Positions 8,693 to 50,149 of a stretch of DNA of 64,000 bases are shown piece after piece. Within the stretch, counting starts at the first letter, position 1, and every line of letters begins with the position of its first letter. Below the pieces are notes generated by a model. That model was given only the letters and a program-made list of their open reading frames with translations. It searched no databases and had not been told where the DNA came from. Both the position numbers and the translations under genes were made by a program. Origin of the DNA: Candidatus Methanoperedens sp. BLZ2 (GTDB lineage Archaea; Halobacteriota; Methanosarcinia; Methanosarcinales; Methanoperedenaceae). The stretch is taken from the NCBI RefSeq assembly GCF_002487355.1, contig NZ_NTMG01000017.1:1-64000 (forward strand), written 5' to 3'.

Positions 8693-8709
8693 CTTTATTT
8701 CTTTTTTCA

Positions 8710-34169: not shown

Positions 34170-34213
34170 TGTATAATAATGTAAGATACTTTTCAATCAA
34201 AGGAGGAACATAA

Positions 34214-34804: not shown

Positions 34805-34903
34805 CTTGGCAATTTATGCTGACGAATCCGTTCAAGGGTCTTTTAGAGTCCAGTATGAAGATTACATCCCATCAAATTTATCCAAAAGTCGTGTGAGAAA
34901 TAG

Positions 34904-35530
34904 ATGAGTCTGATAATCGCATTTGTTGGGGGAACAGAAGCTGCTATTGTCGCAGACATGCGGGAAATTACTTTTCAAGGGGATAAAGTCCTCAGGGAGA
35001 GACTTGAAAGAAAGCTATACAGGGGAGCCATCGCTACAGATATTGAACTTGAAAAAATGGCAGAAGAGATCGGGGTTAAAATAAAGATCAGGGATAATAA
35101 GATCAAGGTAATGCAGCGATATGGGGCTCTTGTGGGGGAGGTTGTCTCGGTCGAAGATGGATTTGTGCGAAAAAGGAGGTTGTATGCCACGGCTGGAAGT
35201 TATATGATTGCAGAGACCAGAGACTCTGAAGTTAAAGTGACTAATAAGGGTGGTAGTGCGTTCATAGTGCTGGGGAACAATATAACGAAAGAAATAGCTA
35301 ATAAATGCATTAGAGAAAACTGGAAAAATGGAGGCTTTCACGAAGCAATAAAGGTGTTGATACTATCTATGGAGGCCGCAGCTAAGGTATCAGCATCAGT
35401 GAGTAAAAAATTCATTATAATACAGACGTCTTCAAATGTTAATCTTTCTGAAGTTATAGAACAGGATAAAATAGGCAGAAAAAATCTTCCATGGTGTTCG
35501 TCGGTGTATGCCTTTGGAGGATATGATTAA
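34904..35530 (+). CDS. DUF2121 family protein
   Basis: A 208-aa protein of the methanogen-restricted DUF2121 family. It shows MSLIIAFVGGTEAAIVADMREITFQGD, then LERKLYRGAIATDIELEKMAEEIGVKI and AFIVLGNNITKEIANK. The N-terminal pattern recalls proteasome-like Ntn folds, but no nucleophile is evident. Function unknown. Its restricted distribution supports a methanogen-lineage host. Confidence 0.75.
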   Translation: MSLIIAFVGGTEAAIVADMREITFQGDKVLRERLERKLYRGAIATDIELEKMAEEIGVKIKIRDNKIKVMQRYGALVGEVVSVEDGFVRKRRLYATAGSYMIAETRDSEVKVTNKGGSAFIVLGNNITKEIANKCIRENWKNGGFHEAIKVLILSMEAAAKVSASVSKKFIIIQTSSNVNLSEVIEQDKIGRKNLPWCSSVYAFGGYD

Positions 35531-35570
35531 ATTATACAATTTATGAACAATAATTCTACGATTTTTAATC

Positions 35571-35609
35571 ATTATTAGACAATTTAGCATAGTTATATAT
35601 ACAATTACA
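35571..35609. repeat. Promoter-region direct repeat, copy 1
   Basis: TTATTAGACAATT..CATA followed by a TATA-rich stretch and ATACAATTA. It recurs at 35880-35918 with about 75 percent identity. Each copy precedes a gene start (35656 and 35925), so the repeat probably contains a regulated promoter. Confidence 0.5.
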
Positions 35610-35655
35610 TTCAATTATTGTTCGCTCCAAAGTCGCATAATGGAGGTGAGATAAA

Positions 35656-35781
35656 ATGGTTGGACTTGAAAGCACAATGGATACAGCTGAAAAGGCAAAG
35701 GATATCAAAAAGCCAGAGGTCTCCGAGGCTGAAAGAGAGAGGCAGAAAAAATTTCTCGAACAATTAAAAAGCCACAGATAA
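35656..35781 (+). CDS. Small charged protein, 41 aa
   Basis: ATG at 35656 follows a strong GGAGGTGAG and opens 41 codons: MVGLESTMDTAEKAKDIKKPEVSEAERERQKKFLEQ... in composition, highly charged and helical. No family. The optimal Shine-Dalgarno and the repeated promoter region before it support expression. It may be a small partner of the recombinase-like protein that follows. Confidence 0.55.
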   Translation: MVGLESTMDTAEKAKDIKKPEVSEAERERQKKFLEQLKSHR

Positions 35782-35830
35782 TCGAAGGACAGAAACATCA
35801 ATATACGTTGAATAACAACTATCGAAGTTA

Positions 35831-35876
35831 GTCAGTAGTTATAAAGAATAACTTACATGTTCGTATATCTACTGAC
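35831..35876. terminator. Long hairpin between small gene and recombinase-like gene
   Basis: A 13-bp stem with one mismatch (35831-35843 with 35864-35876, GTCAGTAG...CTACTGAC) around a 20-base loop. Terminator for the small gene, or operator just upstream of the second promoter repeat. Confidence 0.45.
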
Positions 35877-35879
35877 TAT

Positions 35880-35918
35880 ATTTATTAGACAATTCATCAT
35901 ATTAAAAATACAATTAGA
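35880..35918. repeat. Promoter-region direct repeat, copy 2
   Basis: Second copy of the block at 35571-35609, ending 6 bp before the ATG at 35925. It shares TTATTAGACAATT, CATA and ATACAATTA. Confidence 0.5.
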
Positions 35919-35924
35919 AAATTT

Positions 35925-36512
35925 ATGGGTGATAAACAAATTTCCACAAAAAACGAAAAAAAGCCAGTTGAGTACTTTACTCAATCCGAAATAGATTCAT
36001 TAATAGATTACTTGGATAAATTTACCGTTCCAACACTATGTAAAGCATTTCTTCAGGACAGGGACAAACTATTAATTCTATTTTTATGGAGTACTGGACT
36101 ACGGATCTCCGACGCGCTGGGCATAAGATTAGATAATATAGATTTTAAAAAAGAATCGCTAACCTTTAAGATCAGACGGCAATCGCAAAAAGTAGATCAT
36201 ACAATTTCCCTGGATAAGGCATTGCTTTTTGAAATTTTTAAGTATCGGGATACCTGGCGGATAACAAATCTGCTGTTCGATATGTCGCGGGATAATTTTG
36301 ATAAGAGGCTGAAGGGCTATTGCGACGCTATAGGCATAAAACCCAGGAGTTCCCAGAAGCTCCGCAAAGGCATGGCTATGAAATTGCTCGGTAAAGTCCC
36401 GATTGAGGTCATATCATATCGTTTGGGTCATTCAAGTACCCAGACGGCAGATGAAAGCCACTCAAAAGTTACTCCGGAGATCGAAAAAAGGTTTTTGAAA
36501 GATATCAAATAA
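35925..36512 (+). CDS. Tyrosine-recombinase-fold protein lacking its nucleophile
   Basis: 195 aa, essentially only the catalytic domain of the phage-integrase family. Arg60 (STGLRISDAL), Arg147 (QKLRKG, with Gln144 instead of His) and His169 (YRLGHSS) are present. The position nine residues after that His, where the Tyr nucleophile belongs, is Ser178 (TADESHSK). It lacks an N-terminal core-binding domain. It therefore probably cannot cleave DNA in the usual way and may act as a DNA-binding regulator or accessory factor. The frame is intact, arguing against a simple pseudogene. Confidence 0.7.
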   Translation: MGDKQISTKNEKKPVEYFTQSEIDSLIDYLDKFTVPTLCKAFLQDRDKLLILFLWSTGLRISDALGIRLDNIDFKKESLTFKIRRQSQKVDHTISLDKALLFEIFKYRDTWRITNLLFDMSRDNFDKRLKGYCDAIGIKPRSSQKLRKGMAMKLLGKVPIEVISYRLGHSSTQTADESHSKVTPEIEKRFLKDIK

Positions 36513-36528
36513 TCCGATTGGAGGAGAA

Positions 36529-36840
36529 ATGATAACTAAACAGGAATTGATAGAAGAATTGAAGGTAAAAGAACCGCGTAAAATAAGGAAAGAGTTGCAA
36601 GAGAAACTCTTAAAAAAATGGAAAAGCGATGGAGAGCCAGTTGAATGCGGCTGTGGGAAAGAGATTCCAGGTCAATCAGAGCACTATAAACAGATTCAAA
36701 ATAACATGTTTATTGTTGCATGTGGAAAAAGGAGAAAACTTAAAATGCCGGAGCGTTACGATGCAGCGGCAGTTCTCAGGCAATTGGTACCGTGGATTAT
36801 TTGGGATGAAAAGCCCAAAATCGCTGTAGAGATGTTATAA
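36529..36840 (+). CDS. Hypothetical protein with cysteine motif
   Basis: A 103-aa lysine-rich protein with ECGCGKEIPGQSEHY, then VACGKRRKLKMPERYDAAAVLRQLVPWIIWDEKP. The Cys/His arrangement suggests a small zinc-binding domain. GGAGGAG precedes the ATG. No recognised family. It follows the recombinase-like gene by 16 bp and is probably co-transcribed with it. Confidence 0.55.
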   Translation: MITKQELIEELKVKEPRKIRKELQEKLLKKWKSDGEPVECGCGKEIPGQSEHYKQIQNNMFIVACGKRRKLKMPERYDAAAVLRQLVPWIIWDEKPKIAVEML

Positions 36841-36866
36841 ATCAATGATTAAAGGAGAAGAGCAAT

Positions 36867-37253
36867 ATGGCAAAGATCGAAGGAAAATGTAAAGAAGTTA
36901 TGGATAAAACAGAATGGGTAGCAATAGTAACAAGTGGTGATAATGGTCTGCATGTTGTAGCGACGTGGGGAGACTATATAAGAGCCATTGGTATAAAAGG
37001 TGGCGAAGTTGTCATTATTCCTGCCGGGCATTATAATATAACCGAGGAAAATCTCAAAAAGAACAATCGTGTGGAACTGCTGATCGCTTCAAAACAAGTT
37101 CAGGGAAACTACGGTCCTGGACAGGGATGCTGCATCTCTGGAAAAGGTGAACTCCAGACCTCAGGAAAATTCGCCGAGATGGCAAAGGAAAAATTTCCGT
37201 GGGCAAGAGGAGCGCTTGTTATAAAGGTGAAGGAAGTAAGCACTCAACTCTGA
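36867..37253 (+). CDS. Pyridoxamine-phosphate-oxidase-like flavin-binding protein
   Basis: A 128-aa FMN-binding split-barrel protein: KCKEVMDKTEWVAIVTSGDNGLHVVATWGDYI, then GGEVVIIPAGHYNITEENLKKNNRVELLIAS and a GPGQGCCISGKGEL turn. AAAGGAG precedes the ATG. It sits 13 bp before a siroheme reductase gene, and relatives often accompany such reductases in methanogens, so it may feed them electrons. Confidence 0.75.
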   Translation: MAKIEGKCKEVMDKTEWVAIVTSGDNGLHVVATWGDYIRAIGIKGGEVVIIPAGHYNITEENLKKNNRVELLIASKQVQGNYGPGQGCCISGKGELQTSGKFAEMAKEKFPWARGALVIKVKEVSTQL

Positions 37254-37266
37254 ATACTCAGCGTAT

Positions 37267-38244
37267 ATGACACAAGATAAAAAACCAAGACTCATAACCG
37301 CAGAGGAACTTAAAAGTGGGGGATTCATCCCGCAGCGACAGAAAGACCTGGTCGCAGTGAGATGCAGGGCTCCAGGTGGGCGCTTGACAGCGGCCAAGCT
37401 GAGGAAACTGGCTGATGTTGCTGAAAAATATGGTGATGGAACGGTACATCTATCGGCACGTATGTCCCCTGAAATACTGTATATCAACATGAAGGACTTG
37501 ACCAGCGTGGTCGAAGAGCTTGGAAGTCTCTGGCATTCACCCATAGCCACATGCGGGAGCAGGGTCCGTGTTCCGACTGCGTGCGGCGGTTGCGAGTACA
37601 ATCCGAGAGGATGGACAGATACTCAAAAATTCGCTACGGAAGTTGATAGACGATATTTTTGTACAAGGACGCATCACAAGTTCAAGATGGCATTTACTGG
37701 CTGCGTCATCGACTGCATGCGTACCCGTGAAATGGATCTGGGTTTTCAGGGCATGGTAAAGCCTGAACTGGTAGAAAGTCTGTGCACGGGCTGCAGTCTG
37801 TGTATCCACTCCTGCCATTCAGACGCGCTTGAAATGGTAAATGAACTTCCAAAAAGAATATGGGAAATGTGCGTATCCTGTGGGGACTGCATCAACGTAT
37901 GTCCATCCAGTGCTCTTGTTGCAAAAAATGTGGGGCATGCCGTATATGTGGGAGGAAAACACGGAAGGAACCCACATGCGGCGTATCCAGTTGCTGAATT
38001 CGTTCCCGATGAAAAGGTCTTTGATGTGATAGATGGAACCCTCGCCTGGTATAAATCCAGAGGCAAGCCAGGGGAACGCATCGGTTTCACCATTGATAGA
38101 ATAGGAATCGACGATTACAGAAAACATATGAAAGATATTTTTGGAGAGTATCTTCTTACACAGAAGGATATTGAACAGCCGAAATGGAAAACTATATTCT
38201 GGCCCGGAGCTGCGGAAGCATTCCCCAGGTATGGAGATATTTGA
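37267..38244 (+). CDS. Small siroheme nitrite/sulfite reductase-like protein
   Basis: A 325-aa protein of the NiR/SiR superfamily, small methanogen type. An N-terminal ferredoxin-like half domain (about 10-75) precedes the siroheme/[4Fe-4S] motif PTACGGCEYNPRGWTDT...FTGCVIDC (about 98-140). Two inserted ferredoxin clusters follow: CTGCSLCIHSC and CVSCGDCINVCPSSAL. The first cysteine pair is C-x2-C rather than the C-x5-C usual for dissimilatory sulfite reductase. It reduces sulfite or nitrite, substrate unproven. A paralogue lies at 62960-63955. Confidence 0.8.
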   Translation: MTQDKKPRLITAEELKSGGFIPQRQKDLVAVRCRAPGGRLTAAKLRKLADVAEKYGDGTVHLSARMSPEILYINMKDLTSVVEELGSLWHSPIATCGSRVRVPTACGGCEYNPRGWTDTQKFATEVDRRYFCTRTHHKFKMAFTGCVIDCMRTREMDLGFQGMVKPELVESLCTGCSLCIHSCHSDALEMVNELPKRIWEMCVSCGDCINVCPSSALVAKNVGHAVYVGGKHGRNPHAAYPVAEFVPDEKVFDVIDGTLAWYKSRGKPGERIGFTIDRIGIDDYRKHMKDIFGEYLLTQKDIEQPKWKTIFWPGAAEAFPRYGDI

Positions 38245-38247
38245 TTT

Positions 38248-39219
38248 ATGGAACTGAAACTGAAAGAACCAGTTGATAATCTCTGCGATTACACGTATAA
38301 CTTCACATGGCAGAGTAATATGATCCGTCCCACCGGTATCATTCCTTCTCAAGAAAACACGAGTTTTACATACAAAGAGCTGGTGAATGAATTAAGAAAA
38401 GGCAAAGATGTGCGTATTACTGGCAGCGTTGGGAAGAGGCTTGCTTACAGCCTGGGCGCTGACCTCGTGCATTTCGGGGGAAGCGGAGCGCCTGAAAAAG
38501 CAGGAAAGATATACATCGATGGAAATGTTTCTTCTGAAATGGGTATGGGTATGGTTTCAGGAGTGATATATGTTAATGTTAAAGGGCTTATAGAAGAACC
38601 TCTCGGAAATGTAGTAGAGGTTGTGTCAGATGAGCCAGGTTATCGAAAGTTCCGATCAATAACCGAGATACTCTGTAAAGGGCTGGGAAAAGATGTTCTT
38701 GTCTGGAATGATTATGATGAGCGAAAAAGGCATCTTGTGCTGGATGATGGAATGCTTCGCGGGACAGTGGCCGCACGATGTAATTGTGAGGCTCTTGTCA
38801 TACTAAAGGGAAATGCCTACAACGGCACAGGGCTGTTGATGCAGAAAGGCACGGTTCATGTCTTGGGAGATGCAGGCATGAACACTGGTGCGCATCTTGA
38901 TGGTGGTGTGGTTATTGTAGAAGGCATGACAGATGAATTCGCTGGCGCATACATGAAAAATGGCACGCTGATTTTAAACGATTCAAAAGGGTTCGTGGGC
39001 GCAAATCTGAAAGACGGGGTAATTTTTGCAAAAAAGAAAATCAAAACCGCACCACCGATCGAAGAGCTTGTTATATTGCAGGAAGATGCGAACCTGATAA
39101 TGAAAAATCTCGGTTTGGGCCATGTTGAGGCAATGAGCTATCGAAAATATGGGATAAAGAAAGAGAGACTTGTGCGAATGCGGGATGGGTCGGTGGTCGT
39201 AATGGAAAAAGATGAATGA
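38248..39219 (+). CDS. GXGXG-domain protein (GltB C-terminal/FwdC-like)
   Basis: A 323-aa protein. From about residue 75 it forms the right-handed beta-helix with repeated G-x-x-G-x-x-x-G turns (GGSGAPEKAGKIYIDG, DAGMNTGAHLDGGVVIVEG, FAGAYMKNGTLIL) found in glutamate synthase and formylmethanofuran dehydrogenase subunit C. The first 75 residues are different. It starts 3 bp after the siroheme reductase and is therefore its likely partner. Structural rather than catalytic in known members. Confidence 0.75.
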   Translation: MELKLKEPVDNLCDYTYNFTWQSNMIRPTGIIPSQENTSFTYKELVNELRKGKDVRITGSVGKRLAYSLGADLVHFGGSGAPEKAGKIYIDGNVSSEMGMGMVSGVIYVNVKGLIEEPLGNVVEVVSDEPGYRKFRSITEILCKGLGKDVLVWNDYDERKRHLVLDDGMLRGTVAARCNCEALVILKGNAYNGTGLLMQKGTVHVLGDAGMNTGAHLDGGVVIVEGMTDEFAGAYMKNGTLILNDSKGFVGANLKDGVIFAKKKIKTAPPIEELVILQEDANLIMKNLGLGHVEAMSYRKYGIKKERLVRMRDGSVVVMEKDE

Positions 39220-39570
39220 GTATCTGAAAAATCATATTAGTATTTGTGGTGTTCAATATGGTGACCTTAGATCCTTGCTATCGACTCAATATAATTCAAA
39301 ATCCGGCGATTAAAAAAATTCAATAACCCGGTCTTCTAACCTTCTTTCATTATTAAGGTTTTGTATTCATTCCAGTCTGGGCTGGCCTCGGTTGAAGATA
39401 TGGAACTCCCAACCTCAGTCTGTATTATCATATACGGCATTTGGTGATTGCTAGAGTGCGCCCCTCATAATCGAATAAGAGAGGGTGATTACTCGCCTTC
39501 GCTAAGAACCCCGTATGAAACTTTCATCGTTACTGCTCAAGCATTTATAATCCTTTTAGATCGGACAGTT
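39220..39570. other. Intergenic region; possible group II intron 3' end
   Basis: No gene. On the minus strand, about 39541 to 39465 reads like domains V and VI of a group II intron: a GAGC...GATGAAAG...GGGGTTC stem-loop with GAAA cap, then GGCGAGTAATCACC and TTATTCGAT. No reverse transcriptase or 5' part is present. Pairing in the candidate domain V is imperfect, so this is a relic at best. Confidence 0.3.
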
Positions 39571-40107
39571 TTAACTCCAGTGTTCTACAATTGATTTGTA
39601 TTTTTCATGAATCATTTTTCTATCAAACTCCCAACACTCCTGAAGCACGTCTTCCTTCTCTTTTTGGCTAAAATAATCCATGCATGGGATAAAAAAATGC
39701 TTATCCTCCTTTCTAATGTGTTCCGGATAAAATTCAACCAATTGATTTAAAAGCCCGAGCACTCTATGAAAATCTTCTCCTTGACCTTGAATATCCTTCT
39801 CTTTTGCCCTCACTAATTCTTGAGTTAGTTTTCTCCCATATTTATGCTCATCAATCAACTCATTCATAATTTTCTGGTGTTGCTTTGATATCTGCTTTTT
39901 GGAAAGATCTCGAAAAAGGATGTTCTCCTCTTTACCATGATGTGTCATATCTGCATATATCTTGATAAAATCGATGGCAACATCAATGAATACTATATCG
40001 ATCTTTTTTTCAAGTTCTATTTGTTCTATTTCATTACGAACCTGGTTGATCATTCTTTCTATGAGACGGTGTTCAACCATCAATGGATCTATGGGCAACA
40101 TAATCAA
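39571..40107 (-). CDS. Hemerythrin-like diiron protein
   Basis: A 178-aa four-helix hemerythrin HHE-domain protein. It has MVEHRLIERMINQ (His of helix 1), MTHHGKEENILFRDL (HxxxE), DEHKYGRKL and YPEHIRKEDKHFF (HxxxD), all the diiron ligands. Probable role is O2 or NO sensing or binding. The 5-kb transposon inserted 43 bp upstream of its start, displacing its original promoter. Confidence 0.85.
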   Translation of the reverse strand: MIMLPIDPLMVEHRLIERMINQVRNEIEQIELEKKIDIVFIDVAIDFIKIYADMTHHGKEENILFRDLSKKQISKQHQKIMNELIDEHKYGRKLTQELVRAKEKDIQGQGEDFHRVLGLLNQLVEFYPEHIRKEDKHFFIPCMDYFSQKEKEDVLQECWEFDRKMIHEKYKSIVEHWS

Positions 40108-40140
40108 ACCCTATTACTGATTTACCATATATATTTGTTG

Positions 40141-40149
40141 TGATTATTC
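40141..40149. repeat. 9-bp target duplication, left
   Basis: TGATTATTC immediately before the left terminal repeat; the identical 9 bp follow the right terminal repeat at 45144-45152. Confidence 0.85.
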
Positions 40150-40207
40150 GGTTCTGTCAAATCTACGTTTGCTAGGATAGACTGTCAAAAATCGTTTGCT
40201 GGTAAAA

Positions 40208-41215
40208 TCACAATGAAGAGCTATAAGGCAATGACTTAATGTAGTTTTCCATAAAATCAAAATCTGGCGTGCCATCTGTTTTTGTTGGAAGTTTAATCTG
40301 TGTTTTACTCATCCTATCTTGGCTTGCTTTTCTTCCATAATTGTATCGATACTTCTCTGAATTAATCACAGTGGTTAAGAACATCGCATTATATTTATTC
40401 AGTTTAAACCTCGGAATTAGTTTCTCCACATGGTCACTTGCTGAGAAGTCTAAAGGTTGATAACTACAGTAACCTATCACTGCACTATCTACTGTCAATA
40501 TGTTACCGTCATTTGCCTTAAAATCATAAAATCCACCCACACCGTTGTTTGTAGCTTGCGTTGTTACATATGGATATTTCCCCTTACCGTATGATCCCTC
40601 CAATGTTCTCAATGGGGTTCTCTTACTTCCTGTAATCTCAAAAAGGTCTGATAGTTTATGATATTTCCATTGTGAAACATCCAACTCGATTTTCGTGCAG
40701 ATCAGATTTTTATTTGATATTGGTTTGGTTGAACTCATTAGCGATTTAATATATTTTTCCATAAACTCTATATCTGGTTCGCCGTTTTCTTTCACTGGAA
40801 GTTTAATGATGCTTTCATTCATCCTTTCTAATTTCCACTTTCTCCCATAATTAAATCGATATTTCTCTTTTCTAATTAATGTGATTAGAAACATTGCAAT
40901 AAACATATTTAATCTAAAGTTGTTTTTGGGATACAATATATTTACATCATCAAGTGCAAAATATGGTATTGGTTGATAAAACGTTTCTGCAACACTACTA
41001 CCATTATAATTCACAGTAATTGTATTTTCGGAATGGTTTGGTTTAATATCAATGTATCTATCGACACCATTGTTTGAATCGATTGGTCTTATACATGGTG
41101 TTGTTCCCGGTTGCGTGTCTCTATTAATAATTCTTTTTCCTTTTTGAATATAAAATAGTTCATCGTATCTAAAAGGTTTCCATGAGTTTGTATTCACAAA
41201 GGAATTGCCATTCAT
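40208..41215 (-). CDS. BcgI B-like specificity subunit with two target-recognition domains
   Basis: A 335-aa HsdS-like protein made of two similar halves. Each begins with W.....ELF/DLF.I..GKR/SKR and ends with an F..KYRFNYGRKW/KYRYNYGRKAS...R-M-x-x-x-I-KLP...DGxPDFDFMENYIKSL segment, two target-recognition domains separated by conserved helices. Length matches the BcgI B subunit (about 341 aa). With the A subunit it would recognise a bipartite DNA site. Its start overlaps the A-subunit stop by 4 nt. Confidence 0.8.
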   Translation of the reverse strand: MNGNSFVNTNSWKPFRYDELFYIQKGKRIINRDTQPGTTPCIRPIDSNNGVDRYIDIKPNHSENTITVNYNGSSVAETFYQPIPYFALDDVNILYPKNNFRLNMFIAMFLITLIRKEKYRFNYGRKWKLERMNESIIKLPVKENGEPDIEFMEKYIKSLMSSTKPISNKNLICTKIELDVSQWKYHKLSDLFEITGSKRTPLRTLEGSYGKGKYPYVTTQATNNGVGGFYDFKANDGNILTVDSAVIGYCSYQPLDFSASDHVEKLIPRFKLNKYNAMFLTTVINSEKYRYNYGRKASQDRMSKTQIKLPTKTDGTPDFDFMENYIKSLPYSSSL

Positions 41216-43017
41216 TTTAAATTCATCTCTTGAAATATAACAAACTCTTTGATTGATTTGGCAAAGTCTCTCTCTGTAAGTGTTGAGTAATCAGTTTCCA
41301 TATATGCTTCAGCACACCACTCGTCTTCAGATTTCACTACATGATTTACGCTAAAACCTGGTATATTTTTGCGATTTAAATAGCTATTCACCCATACGGT
41401 CTTAATACCATCCCATTTTTTATCCAAGTCAATTCTACCTTGATTTTTTTTCTTCACAAATCCATCATCTTTCCAATATCCAAAATAGGTTTCCTTATTC
41501 GGTGGGTGTGGCTTCTTTGCTGTTATAACAAGAATTGCAGTTACTACATTCACATCTGAATCAAAAAACAACTCGTTTGGCATTGACATTACTGCTTCTA
41601 ACGTATGGTTTTTGAGTAAGTTTATTTTATCCTCTAATCCTTCTCCAGATGTAGATAGAACCCGCTCCATTGGGATAATTGCGACACAAGTTCCACCACT
41701 TTGTAGGGACTCTAAATTATTCAAGATGAATTTAATTTCCGATGGGTCACCGTCAACAGATTTGTAAGGTGGGTTGAGCATGCCAATATTTGGTTGAAAC
41801 ATGGACATCTTTGTCATTGTCTCTTTATTAAAACAATCTCCCTGCATTAAATTTGTTTTCCCATCGTCATGAAGATACATATTACAGCATGCCAGTGCGT
41901 ATATGTGTGTCGCTTGTTCAACGCCAATAAGTTGTTTATTTTTTATATCGTTTTCTTTTTGCTTGTCACCTTTTGCATCATCCATCATAATTCGCATACC
42001 ACTGATTAGAAACCCACTTGTTCCGGTACAATTATCAAGGAGAATACTATTCTTATTTACCAATGCCAAACAACAAAAAAGGTCTGTGATGTGTGGTGGG
42101 GTTAGAACGATGCCGAACGCCTTATCTTTATTCGCATACCTTAAAAAAGCTATATATAACTCACTCAGGACATCATAATATTTATTTTTTGCAATAAATG
42201 GTTTAATATTGTCCTCGATTGATTTTATAATTGTAAATAATACCTCCCGTTTTTGGGATAATGTAGCATGGTTTTCTATAAAACCAAACTCACTTATTAT
42301 GATTTGTATTTTTTTCTCATCAAGTTTACCCTTCAATTGGTTTTTAATAGACTCAATTAAAAACCGAGCAAGTTCAACTGGTTCTGTCTGTTCTCGATAT
42401 GCACTTCTAAACGCCTTATTATCCAAGGCAATCAATATACCACTTAATAATAATAGTCGTTTGTCCTCACCAACCTTATCTTTATGAAGGTTATTATTAA
42501 GTTCTATAATATATTTTTTGATACTATCAACCGTGTGGATTGTTTTTTCTTGGCTTTCTTTATAATCATTCAGATAATTTTCCAACGATAGGAGTCTATC
42601 GCCGAATACACTGTTGGCTTTGCTTTCGTTCTTTAATTGTAAATAATGAGATACCTTCAATTCTTTTTCAGTTTCTCCACTTACTGCTATTGCCAAAACA
42701 TCATATTCTTTAGATAAATATGAAGAATAAAGCAATACGCCATCAACAGCGTATTCATCGTACTTATCATGGTTCTTGCTTTCATGTTTCATCACACTTG
42801 CCTTGCATTCAACGACTATTATGTAGTCTGGTCTTTCTTTTTGGAACGTGATTATAAATTCTGGTTTTCCTCCACCCATTCCAGACTTTGATGCAATTTT
42901 TAATATTTTATCTACACGTGGGATGCTAGACTTTTGTTTTTCAAGAAGAATATCATTATATTTTTCATCGTTTTTAAAATGGTCGTTTACAATATCTTCT
43001 GTATTTCGTTCATTCAT
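41212..43017 (-). CDS. BcgI A-like fused endonuclease and adenine methyltransferase
   Basis: 601 aa. N-terminal PD-(D/E)XK nuclease signature: FIITFQKERPD (Pro63-Asp64) and VVECKA (Glu70-x-Lys72). A helical linker follows, then an N6-adenine methyltransferase domain with a SAM site (LDNCTGTSGFL, about 325) and catalytic NPPY (about 414). One polypeptide thus cuts and methylates, the type IIB/BcgI plan, and size is close to BcgI A (about 637 aa). Start at ATG 43017 overlaps the upstream regulator stop (ATGA); GTG 43032 is less likely. Works with the specificity subunit. Confidence 0.82.
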   Translation of the reverse strand: MNERNTEDIVNDHFKNDEKYNDILLEKQKSSIPRVDKILKIASKSGMGGGKPEFIITFQKERPDYIIVVECKASVMKHESKNHDKYDEYAVDGVLLYSSYLSKEYDVLAIAVSGETEKELKVSHYLQLKNESKANSVFGDRLLSLENYLNDYKESQEKTIHTVDSIKKYIIELNNNLHKDKVGEDKRLLLLSGILIALDNKAFRSAYREQTEPVELARFLIESIKNQLKGKLDEKKIQIIISEFGFIENHATLSQKREVLFTIIKSIEDNIKPFIAKNKYYDVLSELYIAFLRYANKDKAFGIVLTPPHITDLFCCLALVNKNSILLDNCTGTSGFLISGMRIMMDDAKGDKQKENDIKNKQLIGVEQATHIYALACCNMYLHDDGKTNLMQGDCFNKETMTKMSMFQPNIGMLNPPYKSVDGDPSEIKFILNNLESLQSGGTCVAIIPMERVLSTSGEGLEDKINLLKNHTLEAVMSMPNELFFDSDVNVVTAILVITAKKPHPPNKETYFGYWKDDGFVKKKNQGRIDLDKKWDGIKTVWVNSYLNRKNIPGFSVNHVVKSEDEWCAEAYMETDYSTLTERDFAKSIKEFVIFQEMNLK

Positions 43018-43226
43018 GTCCTCAGCCACCAAAAAATTCTATTGCTTTCTTCTTTTCTGTTCACATAACTCTTTTCATGCAACGCTAAGAGATTATCCTT
43101 TGCGGTCTGCCAAGCGATACCCAATTTCTCCGAGACTTGCCTTGTTGTTAATGGTCTCCGAGCCACATAAAGAAGATTGATTATTCGCGTTTCGTTTGAT
43201 GTGAATTTGCTAATCACCTTTTTCAC
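43014..43226 (-). CDS. Winged-helix regulator of the restriction operon
   Basis: 70-aa winged helix: TRIINLLYVARRPLTTRQVSEKLGIAWQTAKDNLLALHEKSYVNRKEESNRIFWWL. Overlaps both the AbrB-like gene before it and the restriction-methylation gene after it, so all four genes form one coupled operon. Start GTG 43226 or GTG 43217, the latter having GGAG at good spacing. Likely plays the role of a controller protein timing restriction. Confidence 0.65.
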   Translation of the reverse strand: MKKVISKFTSNETRIINLLYVARRPLTTRQVSEKLGIAWQTAKDNLLALHEKSYVNRKEESNRIFWWLRT

Positions 43227-43479
43227 TCCGTACGTACGTTATTTCAATCTTCTCTTGCTGATTTGTTTTGGGAGATGGAAGTTCAACTCTGATCTTGATT
43301 CTATCTCCTTTTTTAACACCTATCGCTTTAGCAATATCTTTTGGAAATCTAACCAAAAACTGCTTACCATCAAAACTGATACTCATTTCCTTTTCTGTTA
43401 CGTCAGATGCAGGTTCAATAACATCCTGTAATTCTTTCGGTAAATTATCATAATCTAATCGTACATTTGAGTCATTCAT
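43210..43479 (-). CDS. AbrB-domain regulator heading the restriction operon
   Basis: 89 aa from ATG 43479 (MNDSNVRLDYDNL). The C-terminal half MSISFDGKQFLVRFPKDIAKAIGVKKGDRIKIRVELP is a clear AbrB swapped-hairpin domain. A TATA box (complement of about 43505-43513) lies about 30 nt upstream, so the transcript is nearly leaderless. GTACGA-containing sites at 43494, 43523 and 43567 surround the promoter; such palindromes are good candidates for its own binding sites. A longer reading from 43521 would cross the TATA box and is rejected. Confidence 0.7.
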   Translation of the reverse strand: MNDSNVRLDYDNLPKELQDVIEPASDVTEKEMSISFDGKQFLVRFPKDIAKAIGVKKGDRIKIRVELPSPKTNQQEKIEITYVRSEKGD

Positions 43480-43522
43480 ATCTACTACTAATATGTACGA
43501 TTTACTATATAAACTTAACATT

Positions 43523-43530
43523 TCGTACGA
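43523..43530. promoter_or_regulatory. TCGTACGA operator-like site, middle copy
   Basis: Perfect 8-bp palindrome between the divergent restriction operon and transposase gene. A half-related GTACGATTTA lies at 43496-43505 beside the operon's TATA box. Confidence 0.5.
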
Positions 43531-43566
43531 TTGATAGAAAGAGTTATATAATTTGAAGTCCTTTAG

Positions 43567-43582
43567 TAAATCGTACGATTTA
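43567..43582. promoter_or_regulatory. Perfect 16-bp palindrome at the transposase promoter
   Basis: TAAATCGTACGATTTA is a perfect dyad 8 bp before the transposase ATG at 43590 and about 25 bp downstream of a TATA box (GTTATATAA, about 43543-43551). A repressor here would cover the transposase transcription start. The same core appears next to the restriction operon promoter. Confidence 0.6.
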
Positions 43583-43589
43583 TTAAGAG

Positions 43590-44759
43590 ATGATTAAAAT
43601 GGAAACTAATACAATATATCCACAAGTTATAGGAACAAGAGAAGACAGGGGAAGGGCAATAGCTGAAAAAGATAGACAGATCATGCGAATGAATGACCAT
43701 TCTTATAAAGTAAAATCACAGTCCAGTGATATTCTTTATGACATAACACAAACTGAGACTGGTTGGAAATGTAATTGTCCTGACCATGAAACAAGAGGTG
43801 TGAAGTGTAAACACATTTTCGCTGTGGAGTTAGTCTTTAACTTGAGAGAACAAGTAAAAAAAAATGTAATCCACCCACTTGAAATTACTGATTGTATCTA
43901 TTGCCATTCGACCAATATTAAGAAATTCGGGGTTCGGCATAACAAACACCATGATGTTCAGAAATATCAATGCAGAGATTGTAAACAGTATTTTTCATTC
44001 AATATTGGTTTTGAGAGATTAAAACACAATCCTCAAGCAGTAACAACAGCTATGCAATTATATTTTAGTGGTGAATCACTCAGAAATACAAAAAATTCAC
44101 TGAAATTGATTGGAGTTCAGGTATCACACCAGACAATTTTCAATTGGATTGAAAAATACACCAATCTCATGAAACAGTATGTCGATAAACTAAAACCAAA
44201 TGTTGGCAGTACATGGAGAGCGGATGAAGTGTTCATAAAATTCAGCGGTGATACAAAATATCTATTCGCTTTGATGGATGATGAAACAAAATATTGGATT
44301 GCTCAGGAAGTCGCTGAAACAAAGTTTAAGCACGATGCCAGAAGCCTACTCCACGAAGGAAAAGAAATTGCCGGAAAAAGACCCAATGTGCTCATTACTG
44401 ATGGATTGCCAGCTTACCATGATGCCTTCAATAAGGAGTTTTATACAAACACATGCCCTCAATCCAAGCATATCAACGCTATAAAACTGGATGGGGATAT
44501 GAACAACAATACAATGGAAAGATCAAATGGGGAAGTAAGGGATAGAGAAAAAGTGATGAGAGGTTTAAAGGTAAAAGATACTCCGATTCTTCCAGGATAC
44601 CAAATATTTCATAATTACATAAGACCACATCAGACATTAAAGGGAAAGACACCAGCGGAAGCTTGTGGTATTCAGGTTGAGGGCGATAATAAGTGGATAA
44701 CGCTAATCCAGAATGCAACCTTCGATTCAGCGAATAGAAAAAATAACGGTGCTAACTAA
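43590..44759 (+). CDS. DDE transposase with N-terminal SWIM zinc finger
   Basis: 389 aa. Residues about 45-80 carry a SWIM zinc finger (CNCPDHETRGVKCKH). Residues about 100-135 form a zinc ribbon (CIYCHSTNIKKFG...YQCRDCKQYFSF). Then comes an RNase H-like DDE domain of the IS6/IS240 group: WRADEVFIKF (Asp), LITDGLPAY (Asp) and NTMERSNGEVRDREKVMRG (Glu), ending FHNYIRPHQTLKGKTPAEACG. Intact. The predicted promoter overlaps a TCGTACGA palindrome. It mobilises the element whose ends lie at 40150 and 45143. Confidence 0.88.
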   Translation: MIKMETNTIYPQVIGTREDRGRAIAEKDRQIMRMNDHSYKVKSQSSDILYDITQTETGWKCNCPDHETRGVKCKHIFAVELVFNLREQVKKNVIHPLEITDCIYCHSTNIKKFGVRHNKHHDVQKYQCRDCKQYFSFNIGFERLKHNPQAVTTAMQLYFSGESLRNTKNSLKLIGVQVSHQTIFNWIEKYTNLMKQYVDKLKPNVGSTWRADEVFIKFSGDTKYLFALMDDETKYWIAQEVAETKFKHDARSLLHEGKEIAGKRPNVLITDGLPAYHDAFNKEFYTNTCPQSKHINAIKLDGDMNNNTMERSNGEVRDREKVMRGLKVKDTPILPGYQIFHNYIRPHQTLKGKTPAEACGIQVEGDNKWITLIQNATFDSANRKNNGAN

Positions 44760-45017
44760 TTCTTGTTTTTTTTCTTTTTTATCGAATAATTTTCGTTTCT
44801 CTCTGAATAAATAAATTACCCAAAGAATAATTTGCATCGCAATAGTTAACTTAATTATAATTTCTGAGTAGAAGATACCTATATCTCCAGTAGGTGCTTT
44901 TAAAACATTTATATACATTGAAGCACTCATTAATAAAATTCCTAACAATAAAAAAGAAGTTGTTTTCTTTTTAAAAGCTTCTCCAAAATGTTTATACTCT
45001 TCAATTGCTTCAGACAT
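44727..45017 (-). CDS. Small two-helix membrane protein of the transposon
   Basis: A 96-aa protein with two membrane segments (TTSFLLLGILLMSASMYINVL and IIKLTIAMQIILWVIYLF) and a basic C-terminus. A TATA-like TATATATTT lies about 30 nt upstream of the ATG at 45017. It is convergent with, and overlaps by 33 bp, the transposase gene. It lies inside the terminal repeats and so travels with the restriction system. Function unknown. Confidence 0.5.
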   Translation of the reverse strand: MSEAIEEYKHFGEAFKKKTTSFLLLGILLMSASMYINVLKAPTGDIGIFYSEIIIKLTIAMQIILWVIYLFREKRKLFDKKEKKQELVSTVIFSIR

Positions 45018-45143
45018 AAACTTAATATTCTACGGTGTTAAATATATATCTTTTGATGATAATATCATGATGATATTATTTTTGGAAAAACCAGCAAACG
45101 AATTTTGACAGCATCCCTCAGCAAACGTAGATTTGACAGAACC

Positions 45144-45152
45144 TGATTATTC
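45144..45152. repeat. 9-bp target duplication, right
   Basis: TGATTATTC directly after the right terminal repeat, identical to 40141-40149. Confidence 0.85.
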
Positions 45153-45294
45153 CAGTAAAATCTGAGATTTTTGCACAGGAGATAGCTGTAAAGAAATAAG
45201 AATCTCGTAAACGATTTTATTCATATCATATCCATTATGTTTAAGATGTTCACTATTGCGGGGAAAAAATTGAACTGTGCAGTAAAGATAATAT

Positions 45295-45424
45295 GAGACT
45301 GTCGGATAAGTCCTGTTTTTTGGGTTTTAGAAATAATAGTCCAAACTCGATGTGCCAATGCATATCGGTTTACTTGGATTAATATCTTAGAATGTTCCAA
45401 TTTTGGTACTTTTCCGACAATCTC
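45295..45424. mobile_element. MITE-like 130-bp insertion
   Basis: Inverted ends of 17 bp, GAGACTGTCGGATAAGT (45295-45311) and ACTTTTCCGACAATCTC (45408-45424), differing at two positions. A 5-bp direct repeat AATAT flanks it (45290-45294 and 45425-45429). It has no coding capacity. It probably depends on a transposase elsewhere in the genome. Immediately right of it a reading frame of about 30 codons (LFQETRNKLENIWEEKEKQ...) runs to TAG at 45521-45523 and may be the tail of a gene it broke. The rest of 45153-45593 shows nothing else. Confidence 0.65.
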
Positions 45425-45593
45425 AATATAAAAGAATTATTTCAGGAAACCAGGAATAAGTTAGAAAATATATGGGAGGAAAAAGAGAAACAGAACAAAG
45501 CGCGCGAAACTGAGAACAAATAGAATAACACGAACAAACAAAAAAATAAATAGTTTTAAGACAAAAGATAATTAATATGAATGTGAGGAATTT

Positions 45594-45797
45594 ATGGTAG
45601 ACAAAATAACCAAAGATAACAAATTAAACGATGTAATAACAAAATATCCAGCCACCAGGGATGTATTTATCAAACACGGAATGCCAAAATATGTGGGACG
45701 ATTGCCATCCGAAAATCTGGAATTTTTCTGCAGGATGCACAGGGTGGATATTAATCAATTGCTTGACGAATTGAATAAGGCAGCAGAGACGGCATAA
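45594..45797 (+). CDS. DUF1858-like small protein
   Basis: 67 aa: KLNDVITKYPATRDVFIKHGMPKYVGRLPSENLEFFCRMHRVDINQLLDELNKA, the DUF1858 fold also found at the N-terminus of ScdA/hybrid cluster-associated proteins. GTGAGG lies upstream of the ATG. Probably a partner in redox or NO-related metabolism; it is coupled with the 4-TM protein that follows. Confidence 0.7.
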   Translation: MVDKITKDNKLNDVITKYPATRDVFIKHGMPKYVGRLPSENLEFFCRMHRVDINQLLDELNKAAETA

Positions 45798-45824
45798 ATA
45801 TAAAATTTTCAGCGAAGGGAAAAC

Positions 45825-46226
45825 ATGGAAATACCGCTTAAGTTTGCCTGGGCAAGCCTGGTTTATTTGCTCATAGGCAGCACCATGGGATTCATAATGG
45901 TTTTAAACTCATCACCACTTACACCCGCCCACGCTCATGTGCTTCTCATAGGCTTCGTTTCAATGATGATATTTGGTGTGGGGTACCATCTTCTACCGGT
46001 ATTCGCAGGCACTGACCTGTACAGCCTCGGCCTCGCCGAGATACAATTCTGGCTTCAGAACATAGGGCTCATTGGCCTTGCTTTCACCATGCCCTACAGG
46101 TATGCAAGTAACAGCTATCTGCTCGGGACAGAGGTATTTGGTTCGATATCGCTTCTGGCAATTTACATCTTTGTTTATAATGTGGCGCGTTCGATCATAC
46201 CGCCAAAAGAAATAAAGAAAAGTTAA
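45825..46226 (+). CDS. Four-helix membrane protein resembling part of a heme-copper oxidase subunit
   Basis: A 133-aa protein with four hydrophobic helices. FAWASLVYLLIGSTMGFIMVL and PAHAHVLLIGFVSMMIFGVGYHLLPVFAG resemble helices of cbb3/NOR-type catalytic subunits, with two His in AHAH and one in GYHLLP as possible haem ligands. Too short for an enzyme on its own. It follows the DUF1858 gene by 27 bp with GAAGGG upstream. Such pairs occur near nitrogen-oxide genes in other microbes, as I recall. Its stop overlaps the convergent PAS relic. Confidence 0.65.
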   Translation: MEIPLKFAWASLVYLLIGSTMGFIMVLNSSPLTPAHAHVLLIGFVSMMIFGVGYHLLPVFAGTDLYSLGLAEIQFWLQNIGLIGLAFTMPYRYASNSYLLGTEVFGSISLLAIYIFVYNVARSIIPPKEIKKS

Positions 46227-47075
46227 GACTTTTCTTCAACCTTTCTCAAAATCATTAAAAAATGTTGCTTGCCTACTGCTGGCAAAGGCGCTAAAATGAT
46301 ATAAAGACCGAAAGCCAGGGCAAATATCGTATCAAGGGTTGCTTTCTGTTCATCTTCGAACAATTTCTCGGACGGTAGTTACGACAGTGATTCCTTCCTT
46401 ATTTTCAATTGGGCTCATGTTAATCTCAACCGGGAACTCGCTCCCATCTTTATTCTTTGCAAGTGAACCAAAGTGAAGCGCTCAGGTATCAGCATATCAT
46501 ACGGTTTACCAAGGAGCTCTTTTCGTTTGTAACCAAATATTTTTTCAGTCTGTGCGTTCACAAGAAGGATATTGAATTTGCTATCTATTATCACGATGGC
46601 ATCTGGTAACGATTCTATAAATCTCTGGAAATTTTTCTCAGCCCGCTTGCGCTCTGTTATATCGCGGACAAGGGCCATCACGACGGTTCCTTTTTCGGTT
46701 CCAAGTGGTCCGAGAGCTATATATACGGGAATTTCGCTTCCATCCTTTCTTATAGCATATAATTCCAATTGGGTGCCCAGAAAGCGGATAATTGGTTTGG
46801 ACATATAATTATTGCGCTGCTCCACATGCAGCTTTCTGAAGCGTTCTGGTACAAAGGATCTCAACGGGTTTACCGAATACCTCATCCGTGCTATAACCAA
46901 ACATCTTCTCAGCTTGCTTGTTGATCTGTACAATGTCCCCGCCGCGGTTTACAACTACAATAGCGTCAGGTGCAAACTGGAAAAGACCTTCAAACATTGG
47001 TTTGGTTTTAAAAGATTCTGCTAGTTCATTTAATTCACTTATGAGTTGCTCTATTGTCTTACTTTCATCTCCCAT
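46223..47075 (-). pseudogene. Frameshifted double-PAS sensor protein
   Basis: ATG 47075 opens a PAS domain (FQFAPDAIVVVNRGGDIVQINKQAEKMFGYSTDEVFG). Near 46860 the frame shifts into VPERFRKLHVEQRNNY...AIRKDGSEIPVYIALGPLGTEKGTVVMALVRDITERK and a second PAS (FIESLPDAIVIIDSKFNILLVNAQTEKIFGYKRKELLGKP). A second shift near 46480 leads to KNKDGSEFPVEINMSPIE and a tail ending at 46223. There is no kinase domain. Two frameshifts make it a pseudogene unless sequencing errors are involved. It probably once sensed redox or small ligands. Confidence 0.7.
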
Positions 47076-47245
47076 ATTGGAACCCCCCAGAATAGTTGCA
47101 AATAACTTAACAGACCTGAGGTATCGGTTTTGTCATATTTTAATACTCATTCAAGACCAAATAATTATCGATTAGGATTTTAATGGAGCATCTGCTTTTA
47201 GAAGTTCCTAAATATAAACCATAAGAGTGGATCAAGTGACCATAG

Positions 47246-47785
47246 CTAAATCCAGTATTCAGGATATTTTCTGTCTTTTGAGAGGTTATTCACCAAAAGG
47301 GCAACGATTAGAAGAATAAAAGCACCAAGACCGGCAGGCATGAAAGCATAGAGATAACCCAGCCTGTGTATATTATCACCACTGATTACAGCAATCAATG
47401 AGGTTGCACCTGCCGGAGGATGGAGAGTTTTTGTTATGAGCATTGCTGAAATTGCGAGTGATACGGCAAGTGCAGAGGCAATCCAGATGGTCTTGCCGAA
47501 TGATTGATAGCATGCTACACCTATAAGGCCTGATATTATGTGTCCTCCAATAAGATTTCTGGGCTGGGCAAGAGGACTTTTGATTGCACCAAAAACAAGG
47601 ACTGCCGAAGCACCGAATGAGCCTATGATTAGAGTCAAGTCTCTCGGTTCAAAGTATTGCGAGGAGAGATACCCAATTATACTGATGCCAATAACAGAAC
47701 CAAGCCATGACCAGAATACCTCACTAAATCCAACTCCGGGTGGACTTCTGGTGCTGCCCCTCATTTTCGAAAAATATTCTTTCAT
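47246..47785 (-). CDS. HPP-family membrane protein
   Basis: A 179-aa membrane protein with about four to five helices and the signature LHPPAGATSLIA (His-Pro-Pro), plus GSFGASAVLVFGAIKSPLAQPRNLIGGH. HPP proteins include plastid and bacterial nitrite transporters, so nitrite movement is a fitting but unproven role beside nitrate-reduction genes. The start overlaps the CBS gene stop by 4 nt. Confidence 0.82.
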   Translation of the reverse strand: MKEYFSKMRGSTRSPPGVGFSEVFWSWLGSVIGISIIGYLSSQYFEPRDLTLIIGSFGASAVLVFGAIKSPLAQPRNLIGGHIISGLIGVACYQSFGKTIWIASALAVSLAISAMLITKTLHPPAGATSLIAVISGDNIHRLGYLYAFMPAGLGAFILLIVALLVNNLSKDRKYPEYWI

Positions 47786-48363
47786 TGTTTCCTCATAAAC
47801 CGGATTATGTTTGCCCTTGAGATTATTCCAATGAGCTTATTCTCCTCATCAACTACAGGGAGCCTTTTGATTCTTTTTTCATCCAGAATCCTCGCTACTT
47901 CCCTGATATCAGCCTCAGGTTTTATTGTTATTGCCGGTGAGGTCATTACATCAGCAACAGTTTCACAATTTTTGCGTCTTGGAATCGGCTCTCCAAGTAT
48001 ATGCATTAGAATATCCTTGAATGTATGATCGCTCTTTATGCCAGCCATGCAAAGAATGTCAGCTTCTGTGACAATACCGATCACATGATTTTCCTCATCA
48101 ATCACAGGCATTCCGCTGATCTTATTTTCTGAAAGGAGCCCTGCAGCCTCATGGAGACCTGCATTTTTTTTAATAGTTATAACGTCTTTAGTCATCACAT
48201 CGCTGACAGGAATCTTAAGTGCAATTCTTTCTTTTGCATGCTTCAGTGCAATTTTAAAAATTATCTTGAGGTCTTCCTCAGTAATGTCCACGTATTGATG
48301 CAGTTCCTTCAAAGCCGCTTGAAGGTCTTCACTTTCAAGTTCCAGTTCCTGCATAATACTCAC
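47782..48363 (-). CDS. CBS-pair regulatory protein
   Basis: A 193-aa protein with an N-terminal helical region (about 1-50) and two CBS domains: VSDVMTKDVITIKKNAGLHEAAGLLSENKISGMPVID and VADVMTSPAITIKPEADIREVARILDEKRIKRLPVVD. It binds adenosine nucleotides in known members. It overlaps both neighbours by 4 nt, forming an operon amidohydrolase-CBS-HPP, and may gate the HPP transporter, as CBS modules do fused to channels elsewhere. Confidence 0.88.
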   Translation of the reverse strand: MSIMQELELESEDLQAALKELHQYVDITEEDLKIIFKIALKHAKERIALKIPVSDVMTKDVITIKKNAGLHEAAGLLSENKISGMPVIDEENHVIGIVTEADILCMAGIKSDHTFKDILMHILGEPIPRRKNCETVADVMTSPAITIKPEADIREVARILDEKRIKRLPVVDEENKLIGIISRANIIRFMRKQ

Positions 48364-49088
48364 AACTCCAGTATGCGTCTCATATTTTCCCCCATAATAA
48401 GCTTTTTTTCATTCTCGGATATATTGAGCGATTTTATTTTTGTAAGTTCCGATTCCATACTGATATATGGGGAGTCTGATCCCATGATTATTCTTTCAGC
48501 ACCGAGATCCTCAACCGCTTCCTGGATAATCTCTTTTCGTGGCATGCCTGTTGTCTGAAGATAGATATTTTGGTGGTGTAAAGCCACTCGGAGAAAATCT
48601 CCTAACATGTGTGCCATGATTATCTTTGCGTCAGGGAATAAATCTGCCAGTTCTCCAAATTGTTCTGGTGGCGATTCCTTTTTACCTGAATCAAAGATGA
48701 TAGGAATGTTGAGCCTGTCTGCATTTTTGATAATGTCTTTTAGATTCTCGCTTCTGAGCGAGAACTTCTGGCTTGAGGGATGAAGCTTTAGACCAACAAG
48801 CCCAATCTCAACATCACGTTTTAGCTCTTCGACTGCTTTTTTCCCAAAGTTGGGGTCAAGCCGTGCAAAGCCTATGAGCCTGTCCGGATATTTATTGATA
48901 GCCTCTGCCGTCCTTTTGTTCGCCATGGAAAAAGATATTCCAGGATTTATCTCGTTGAACGGAAATATCACTGCCTTATCTATACCTAGCCGGTCCATTT
49001 CAGTCACTATTTCCTCGGCAGATTGCCTCTTTCCATCACCCCTATCCGGACCACCTACATGGTTGTGTGCATCTATTATCAATCCCAT
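48360..49088 (-). CDS. Amidohydrolase-2 family metal-dependent hydrolase
   Basis: A 242-aa TIM-barrel hydrolase: IIDAHNHVGGPD (HxH metal motif, about 4-14), GLKLHPSSQKF, a HMLGDFLRVAL segment, and AERIIMGSDSPY with the metal-binding Asp near the C-terminus. Substrate unknown. First gene of the minus-strand operon with CBS and HPP genes. Its promoter must lie within 49089-49190. Confidence 0.82.
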   Translation of the reverse strand: MGLIIDAHNHVGGPDRGDGKRQSAEEIVTEMDRLGIDKAVIFPFNEINPGISFSMANKRTAEAINKYPDRLIGFARLDPNFGKKAVEELKRDVEIGLVGLKLHPSSQKFSLRSENLKDIIKNADRLNIPIIFDSGKKESPPEQFGELADLFPDAKIIMAHMLGDFLRVALHHQNIYLQTTGMPRKEIIQEAVEDLGAERIIMGSDSPYISMESELTKIKSLNISENEKKLIMGENMRRILEL

Positions 49089-49192
49089 ATTATTTCTTTG
49101 TCTCCTTTTTATCTTCTCCGTCTAAGCAGACTATTGATGCAAAATCCATCAGTGCCACGCTGTGATTGCTTCAAATCCCGACACTGGTTTTG

Positions 49193-49279
49193 CTACTGTT
49201 CCTTCTGTGCTTCCACTATTCCTGAGAAACCCATGAAAATCAGGGTTACTGCAGCTAACCCAATCAATCTTTTATTCAA
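49193..49279 (-). pseudogene. Relic of a secreted protein (signal peptide, possible PGF-CTERM tail)
   Basis: AGGAGAT followed by TTG at 49279 opens 28 codons: LNKRLIGLAAVTLIFMGFSGIVEAQ..., a good signal peptide, then TAG. In the next frame the DNA reads VAKPVSGFEAITAW, and in a third frame INSLLRRRR. Together these resemble the P-G-F/helix/RRR pattern of archaeal PGF-CTERM anchors. It looks like a surface protein reduced to its two end signals and then frameshifted. Reading is tentative. Confidence 0.35.
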
Positions 49280-49516
49280 CTCTTAATCTCCTATCATGTT
49301 ATTTTTGAATGTTTTCAATCACATGTTCTTGATATTTTTAACAGATAAATCTAACTGCTATAACATATAGATTGAATTAGCTATTTTTATTATAGTTTAT
49401 AGTGGTTAAGTTTATTCGTGAGCGGTGAGTTAAAATTAATTGAATGCTCAACACCAAAAATAATACGATTAACCAAATAAAATCATAAAAATATAGAAGG
49501 AAATGGAGGATAAAAA
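49280..49516. other. Intergenic leader before mcrD
   Basis: No gene. AT-rich, with TATA-like AATAATACGATT... and ATAAAATCATAAAAATATAG near 49458-49495, and a strong GGAGG at about 49505-49509 before the ATG at 49517. Probably the promoter of mcrD and possibly of the Hdr supercluster. Confidence 0.45.
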
Positions 49517-50038
49517 ATGGTTCAAGCTAAAATAGCCAAGAATAAACCCATACAGATAAGAATATTCCCGGCTCGATTGTTACAACCGGAAACTGTTGAA
49601 AAAACCTTAAACGAGATTGATCATGTCAAAGGTGTGATCAGAATGCTCATTAATGGAAAAAGCCTTCCCAAAAAAGTCATGTGTGGACCCGGGACTGGCA
49701 CAGATGTAAACCATCCTGAAAGAAAAATAATTCATGTCGGAGATTGTGCTTTCGAATTGCACATAATGGTCGGAGAGATTTTAGTCGAAGTTGATGATGA
49801 ACGTGCAATGGATAGCGTCAAAAAGGCATGTGAACGGGTGCTTCCTTTTTCCTTTGAATTCAAACAAGGGAACTATATGAAGAGGAAACCAACTCTTACT
49901 GATTACGGCAAATATGGATTCAAAAGCAAGACTGATGAGAGAATCAATGTTGAAGACGAACGACTACTTGGCCTTATAGATCCAAATGCAAAAGCAGAGG
50001 ATACTTTTTGTATGATCTCTACTGAACAGGAAAAATAA
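49517..50038 (+). CDS. mcrD: McrD, methyl-coenzyme M reductase operon protein D
   Basis: A 173-aa protein. IQIRIFPARLLQPETVEKTLNEIDHVKGVIRMLINGKSLPK and GTDVNHPERKIIHVGDCAFELHIMVGEILVEVDDE are the McrD pattern. In methanogens and ANME archaea it accompanies methyl-CoM reductase and is implicated in its maturation. No mcrA, B or G genes are near, so this is a solitary or second copy leading into the Hdr cluster. GGAGG precedes the ATG. Confidence 0.85.
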   Translation: MVQAKIAKNKPIQIRIFPARLLQPETVEKTLNEIDHVKGVIRMLINGKSLPKKVMCGPGTGTDVNHPERKIIHVGDCAFELHIMVGEILVEVDDERAMDSVKKACERVLPFSFEFKQGNYMKRKPTLTDYGKYGFKSKTDERINVEDERLLGLIDPNAKAEDTFCMISTEQEK

Positions 50039-50149
50039 AGAACACAAATTGATTGACATTGTATCCTCATGAATTCAAGTATTAATTGAGGATGAAATTC
50101 TATCGAAATTTATGAACATTTAACCAGAAGTAACGATGGTGGATACGAA

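Follow-up and report, generated by a model that had tools for sequence, protein, structure and literature searches.

The segment at positions 40150–45143 of the window, by which we mean the whole stretch of 64,000 nucleotides analyzed here from Candidatus Methanoperedens sp. BLZ2, is a transposon of 4994 bp. Because METP1, a related Methanoperedens genome, has the corresponding site empty, with the 9-bp target sequence present once, the restriction genes and the rest of the element entered as a single unit. The element probably belongs to an archaeal family of IS6-like transposons and is autonomous, controlled by a regulator and loaded with exchangeable cargo (Table 1).

The element is real and correctly bounded. 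Its inverted repeats of about 54 bp are identical over the outer 24 bp and align over the remainder with small gaps, each end being a tandem of two related boxes rather than one plain repeat, and a perfect 9-bp duplication, TGATTATTC, encloses it; the ends and the duplication had both been claimed in a preliminary description of this DNA and are borne out by repeat comparison. The GC content is 33.7% inside the element as against 42.1% for the whole window. In METP1 (genome G003, contig L197) the site is unoccupied: TGATTATTC is present once and the sequence reads straight through, with positions 36520–40149 and 45144–45294 of the window aligning to adjoining stretches of L197 with an overlap of exactly 9 bp, and all 4994 bp, restriction genes included, are missing. 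The flanks are 97–98% identical overall, and a search with the left flank found METP1 to be 98% identical across 850 bp. This comparison is most simply read as an insertion in the lineage of the window, precise loss in METP1 being less likely, and the insertion is probably recent. We infer that the element is mobile at present, although its transposase is found in only one copy in the source genome (G000; 3.74 Mb in 85 contigs). Over a wider region, window positions 33511–53102 match L197 at 89–99% identity in blocks, with a differing gap at about 46207–48358.

Restriction-modification (R-M) genes often adjoin mobile elements (PMC3031569), and relatives of the RM protein occur without ends of this type (L199 and L198), as they might if an R-M island merely adjoined an insertion sequence and the borders were due to chance or to separate insertions. 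That reading is highly improbable: the ends, the transposase and the R-M genes all lie within one duplication, and the absence from METP1 of exactly 4994 bp, with the 9 bp present once, rules it out at the window site. The proposal that a single transposase carries cargo inside its own long ends has instead been upheld, the empty-site comparison showing one insertion and not separate ones. A composite transposon with two flanking IS copies is ruled out by the single transposase and the single pair of ends, and a chance inverted repeat by the duplication, the empty site and the end-pattern search, which found about 100 similar ends in 28 of the 31 genomes of the genus (a reversed control pattern gave one match).

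Table 1. Features of the transposon and its target site (positions in the window)
Feature	Position	Strand	Basis
Left target-site duplication, TGATTATTC	40141..40149	.	Once in METP1
Left end, two boxes ending TTTGCT	40150..40203	+	Repeat comparison
S (specificity) subunit, 335 aa, two recognition domains	40208..41215	-	Pfam Methylase_S, 2 stretches; PADLOC Specificity_II, 6e-49
RM subunit, up to 606 aa, nuclease and N6-adenine methylase in one chain	41212..43032	-	PADLOC Type IIG, 4.3e-153
Winged-helix regulator, 70 aa	43014..43226	-	Weak Pfam TrmB/HTH match below cut-off; 73% identical copy in L035
AbrB/MazE-like regulator, 103 aa or shorter	43210..43521	-	PF04014, 2.6e-4, below cut-off; 67% identical copy in L035
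Divergent promoter region, TCGTACGA repeats (cores 43524, 43572), proposed operator	43486..43589	.	Putative function
Transposase, 389 aa: SWIM, zinc ribbon, DDE	43590..44759	+	DDE_Tnp_IS240, 3.1e-14; IS6 model (below cut-off); family alignment
Small two-helix membrane ORF, 96 aa	44727..45017	-	ORF
Right end, two boxes ending TTTGCT	45090..45143	-	Repeat comparison
Right target-site duplication, TGATTATTC	45144..45152	.	Once in METP1

The four leftward genes (AbrB-like, winged-helix, RM and S) overlap end to end and form one operon, divergent from the transposase gene. Gene calls and profile matches agree with the contents first described, namely a two-subunit R-M system, two regulators, a transposase and a membrane protein, and the S gene stops, as had been stated, about 5 bp inside the inner edge of the left repeat. 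The membrane ORF has no family match in Pfam, PADLOC and NCBIfam profile searches; small related membrane proteins recur as cargo in other elements (L040, 8307–8690; L053, 8640–9029). A PDB sequence search with the transposase returned zero matches, and its AlphaFold model (mean pLDDT 41) is too poor for use.

The predicted RM and S reading frames are intact and have a BcgI-like layout. RM matches the PADLOC Type IIG model over its full length, and the BcgI subunits are similar in size to RM and S. As in BcgI-like Type IIB/IIG systems, the nuclease is fused to a gamma-class N6 methylase and a separate S subunit has two recognition domains, the RM plus S layout of BcgI itself (PMC3874165); unlike them, the system of the window is borne by a transposon and shares its operon with two regulators. 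The motifs PD..ECK (nuclease) and NPPY (methylase) are kept in a 53% identical protein on the viral contig L199, which has an S gene downstream and no ends of the element type nearby, and in a 43% identical relative on a Pseudarthrobacter plasmid. Pfam, PADLOC and these conserved motifs thus support the original assignment to a BcgI-like RM with a separate two-domain S. Beyond the source genome, strong matches to RM numbered only two among 393 genomes sampled from the phylum, the better of them 53–58% identical, in two pieces and with an in-frame stop; METP1 has no close relative of RM, its best match being 27% identical (E 2.7e-4).

The predicted R-M cargo probably serves the host by restricting foreign DNA, and any addiction effect would be secondary. 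A different reading, close to the self-enforcing mobile unit of the preliminary description, makes R-M chiefly a device of addiction by which the transposon persists in a population. Some Type II R-M systems are known for post-segregational killing, and toxin-like proteins (Fic, RelA/SpoT) are repeatedly found as cargo between ends of this kind. However, much of the cargo of the family belongs to no toxin-like family; RM is fused and needs S, and therefore loss of the element would leave no free nuclease in any obvious way; and METP1 lives without the element, though it may never have had it. Addiction as the main function is possible but unsupported, and we consider it unlikely.

The closest relative of the element, L035 from isolate STD1_6, keeps the transposase, the regulators and the ends, but has a different R-M enzyme. 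Between the two, the transposases are 75% identical, the AbrB-like proteins 67% and the winged-helix proteins 73%, and the DNA is 71% identical over about 1.7 kb, with ends that are 87–90% identical and no DNA similarity outside these parts, whereas the R-M proteins share 25% identity over 214 aa. Within the genus, weak matches of about 35% aside, no genome but these two has the AbrB-like protein. Because the regulators are conserved while R-M differs, they appear to accompany the transposon, or those versions of it that bear R-M, and not any one enzyme. Chance gene capture by a few insertion sequences, with no special link between family and cargo, would make the window element a single transporter insertion sequence (tIS) whose regulators belong to the control of R-M; tIS have been described in several IS families (PMC7986276), and within the genus the two regulators are found as a pair only in the elements of the window and L035, which both carry R-M. 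Against this, the R-M systems of the two are very different while their regulators are 67–73% identical, in other elements the divergent position is taken by different regulators, which have operators of their own, and all intact copies with duplications contain cargo. We therefore judge chance capture to be rather unlikely, and favor a family in which a frame of ends, transposase and regulator appears stable and the cargo exchanged.

Transposases about 70–78% identical to that of the window are encoded in several Methanoperedens genomes, remoter ones (37–60%) in Nitrosocosmicus, Nitrososphaera, Nitrosotalea and one Asgard record, and three related ones on viral contigs. Duplications of 8–9 bp flank elements of Methanoperedens (L035, L036, L038, L040, L041, L044, L045 and L053, the transposase gene being damaged in L038 and L053), of the Nitrososphaeria type (L088–L091, L097 and L098) and of viral contigs (L104 and L106). 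Those with an intact transposase measure 2.6–5.4 kb, and no bare 1.3-kb insertion sequence was found among them; every one carries cargo, so that within this family the earlier view of cargo in a single-transposase element as uncommon does not hold.

Since close relatives carry other genes between matching ends, the family seems to be an exchangeable shuttle for cargo, often of the defence type. Three other Methanoperedens elements with such ends carry different R-M systems: an 867-aa methylase-specificity fusion in L035, an HSDR_N-methylase with S in L036, and a 724-aa methylase with a 503-aa S-like protein in L157. The preliminary description had proposed a search for such ends with the restriction genes and without them, and both kinds exist. 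GmrSD_N and HNH lie beside the ends of L045, NYN is found in L042, RelA/SpoT in L043 (PADLOC PDC-S33 at 5e-114; one end found) and an AAA ATPase close to the NsnB and AriA models in L098, in addition to membrane proteins and many proteins without a family. The inverted ends of L098, from Nitrosotalea, are identical over at least 64 bp, and its AAA ATPase and three familyless neighbors (3346–8764) are possibly a new defence operon. The viral-contig element L106 includes a proteasome-like (Ntn-hydrolase) cargo protein with a weak Pfam match (5687–6598).

Paired ends also occur without a transposase, around the R-M-type cargo of L157 (1687–7255; G020:C18), Fic in L136 (with a duplication) and L153, NYN in L140, and other cargo in further pairs. 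Because such ends hold cargo, a helper transposase acting in trans is likely. No duplication was found at the paired ends of L042, L116, L123, L140, L145, L146, L153 and L157, which are likely but unproven elements. At L051 (11200–11210; G009:C44) two family ends adjoin back to back with about 10 bp between them, as adjacent insertions might leave them.

Many elements have a gene for a small DNA-binding protein back to back with the transposase gene, and the gap between the two holds repeats. Of these regulators, four types are found twice, every type in two elements and with a private repeat: TCGTACGA in the window and L035, TAGGYACCTA in L034 and the Nitrosocosmicus element L090 (regulators 49% identical), GTGGTGA in L040 and L048 (88% identical) and GTAGCTAYATAATA in L037 and L047 (89% identical). 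A few regulator-linked repeats are also found once elsewhere (GTGGTGA in L106), and in about half of the elements direct or inverted repeats in the gap exceed almost every shuffle. From this arrangement we infer an autoregulated divergent promoter, which would also govern the transposase and, in the window, the R-M operon. The other CGTACG sites of the window, at 61047 and 61069, are without the operator layout and look like chance occurrences. The regulator of L047 (8595–8750) matches Pfam DUF2080, "putative transposon-encoded protein"; because this protein adjoins a transposase and has a private repeat, the match suggests that DUF2080 is a transposon regulator.

Whether the transposase belongs to IS6 is uncertain, because the IS6 model is missed, the ends are long and reviews disagree. 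Its DDE domain matches the IS6-type profile PF13610 DDE_Tnp_IS240 (3.1e-14, above the cut-off), and GGTTCTGTCAAA, at both ends of the window element, has the GG tips with cTGTt and caaa motifs described for IS6 (PMC7986276). Duplications are of 9 bp in the window and of 8 or 9 bp across the family, IS6 having 8-bp direct repeats. With the NCBIfam IS6 model, however, the transposase scores 116.2 bits against a cut-off of 125, about 9 bits short; ends of about 54 bp and a length of 4994 bp depart from the norm of 14–20 bp inverted ends in a compact 0.7–0.9 kb (PMC7986276); and reviews differ on whether archaeal and zinc-finger forms belong to IS6 at all (PMC7986276, PMC6807381). The family thus resembles IS6/IS26 and the zinc-finger clades in its DDE domain, GG tips, TGT and CAAA end motifs and, in some elements, 8-bp duplications, but differs in its SWIM domain and ribbon, two-box ends of about 54 bp, duplications of 8 or 9 bp and several passengers.

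The IS6 review names only ISDsp3 as a carrier of passenger genes (PMC7986276), and in a survey of thaumarchaeal mobile elements IS-like transposons typically have 1–2 genes (PMC6563490). Like a tIS (PMC7986276), the window element has one transposase and passenger genes inside its own ends; in its family, however, cargo is the rule, reaches about 4 kb and comes with private regulators. R-M systems on transposon-like units are known from PluTI and a Rhizobium system, as cited in PMC3031569; in that account these are R-M genes on a putative mobile unit, some of them flanked by repeats, whereas the window shows transposase, ends, duplication and empty site together. Tn7-like transposons, which are known to carry defence cargo (PMC8649781), likewise have a stable frame, variable cargo including defence genes and arrays of transposase sites at their ends (such sites being proposed for the window element), but the family of the window has one transposase, of another family, a size of 3–5 kb and archaeal hosts. 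R-M on a transposon is not new, then; a cargo-carrying IS6-like family appears to be undescribed in the papers searched, among which no account of one was found; bioRxiv preprints, ISfinder and the bulk of subscription journals lie outside that search. What is chiefly new is this cargo-carrying family with its conserved frame, and a testable rule for the recognition of ends.

Each end has two boxes of the design, roughly, TGTYAA-N-CG followed by six variable bases. The paired six-base words within an end agree at 4.49 of 6 positions (43 distinct pairs), compared with 3.20 ± 0.14 when shuffled and a maximum of 3.77 in 5000 shuffles. The residue after a conserved Q in the ribbon (K125 in the window) tracks the first variable base in 24 of 24 related elements, a pair of positions picked post hoc and labeled by majority calls over up to four boxes, with single boxes deviating in L038, L089 and L106. 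The pairings are R with G (12), K with T (6), L with A (4) and V with T (2), with zero exceptions; L034, which has two candidate right ends 67 bp apart, was left out of the set. On a tree built without the ribbon, the pattern requires 9 changes of residue 125 and 8 of box base 1. Their mutual information (1.27 bits) is the highest of 1260 pairs, one shifted box call notwithstanding. By z, two pairs involving base 4 rank above it, but their information is lower, and the higher z probably stems from relatedness. Direct contact between ribbon and box predicts repeated matched changes, as seen, and the ribbon may thus read the box; exchange of ribbon and ends together may also underlie the match.

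In the mechanism that we propose, the zinc ribbon of the transposase would locate the ends by the two copies of the short box in each, and the transposase would insert the whole segment, making a duplication of 8–9 bp. Its promoter would diverge from that of a small regulator specific to the element, and by way of the repeated operators this regulator probably represses transcription both ways. In the window the predicted regulator operon runs on into the BcgI-like R-M system, which would place cargo and mobility under one control region. More tentatively, and at slightly less than even odds, this may be a widespread archaeal family built for cargo, in which a frame of double-box ends, transposase and regulator with operators has repeatedly exchanged defence and other genes, and in which a rule of one residue to one base (R–G, K–T, L–A, V–T) would pair every transposase with the ends of its own element and perhaps with cargo elements that have no transposase. 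The window element, for which both filled and empty site are defined, points to a compact route, needing one transposase, for the movement of entire restriction systems and other defence-type genes among uncultured archaea. Moreover, the proposed match of one residue to one base would be a simple and directly testable rule by which a transposase recognizes its own ends, and could serve to assign transposase-less cargo elements to their helper.
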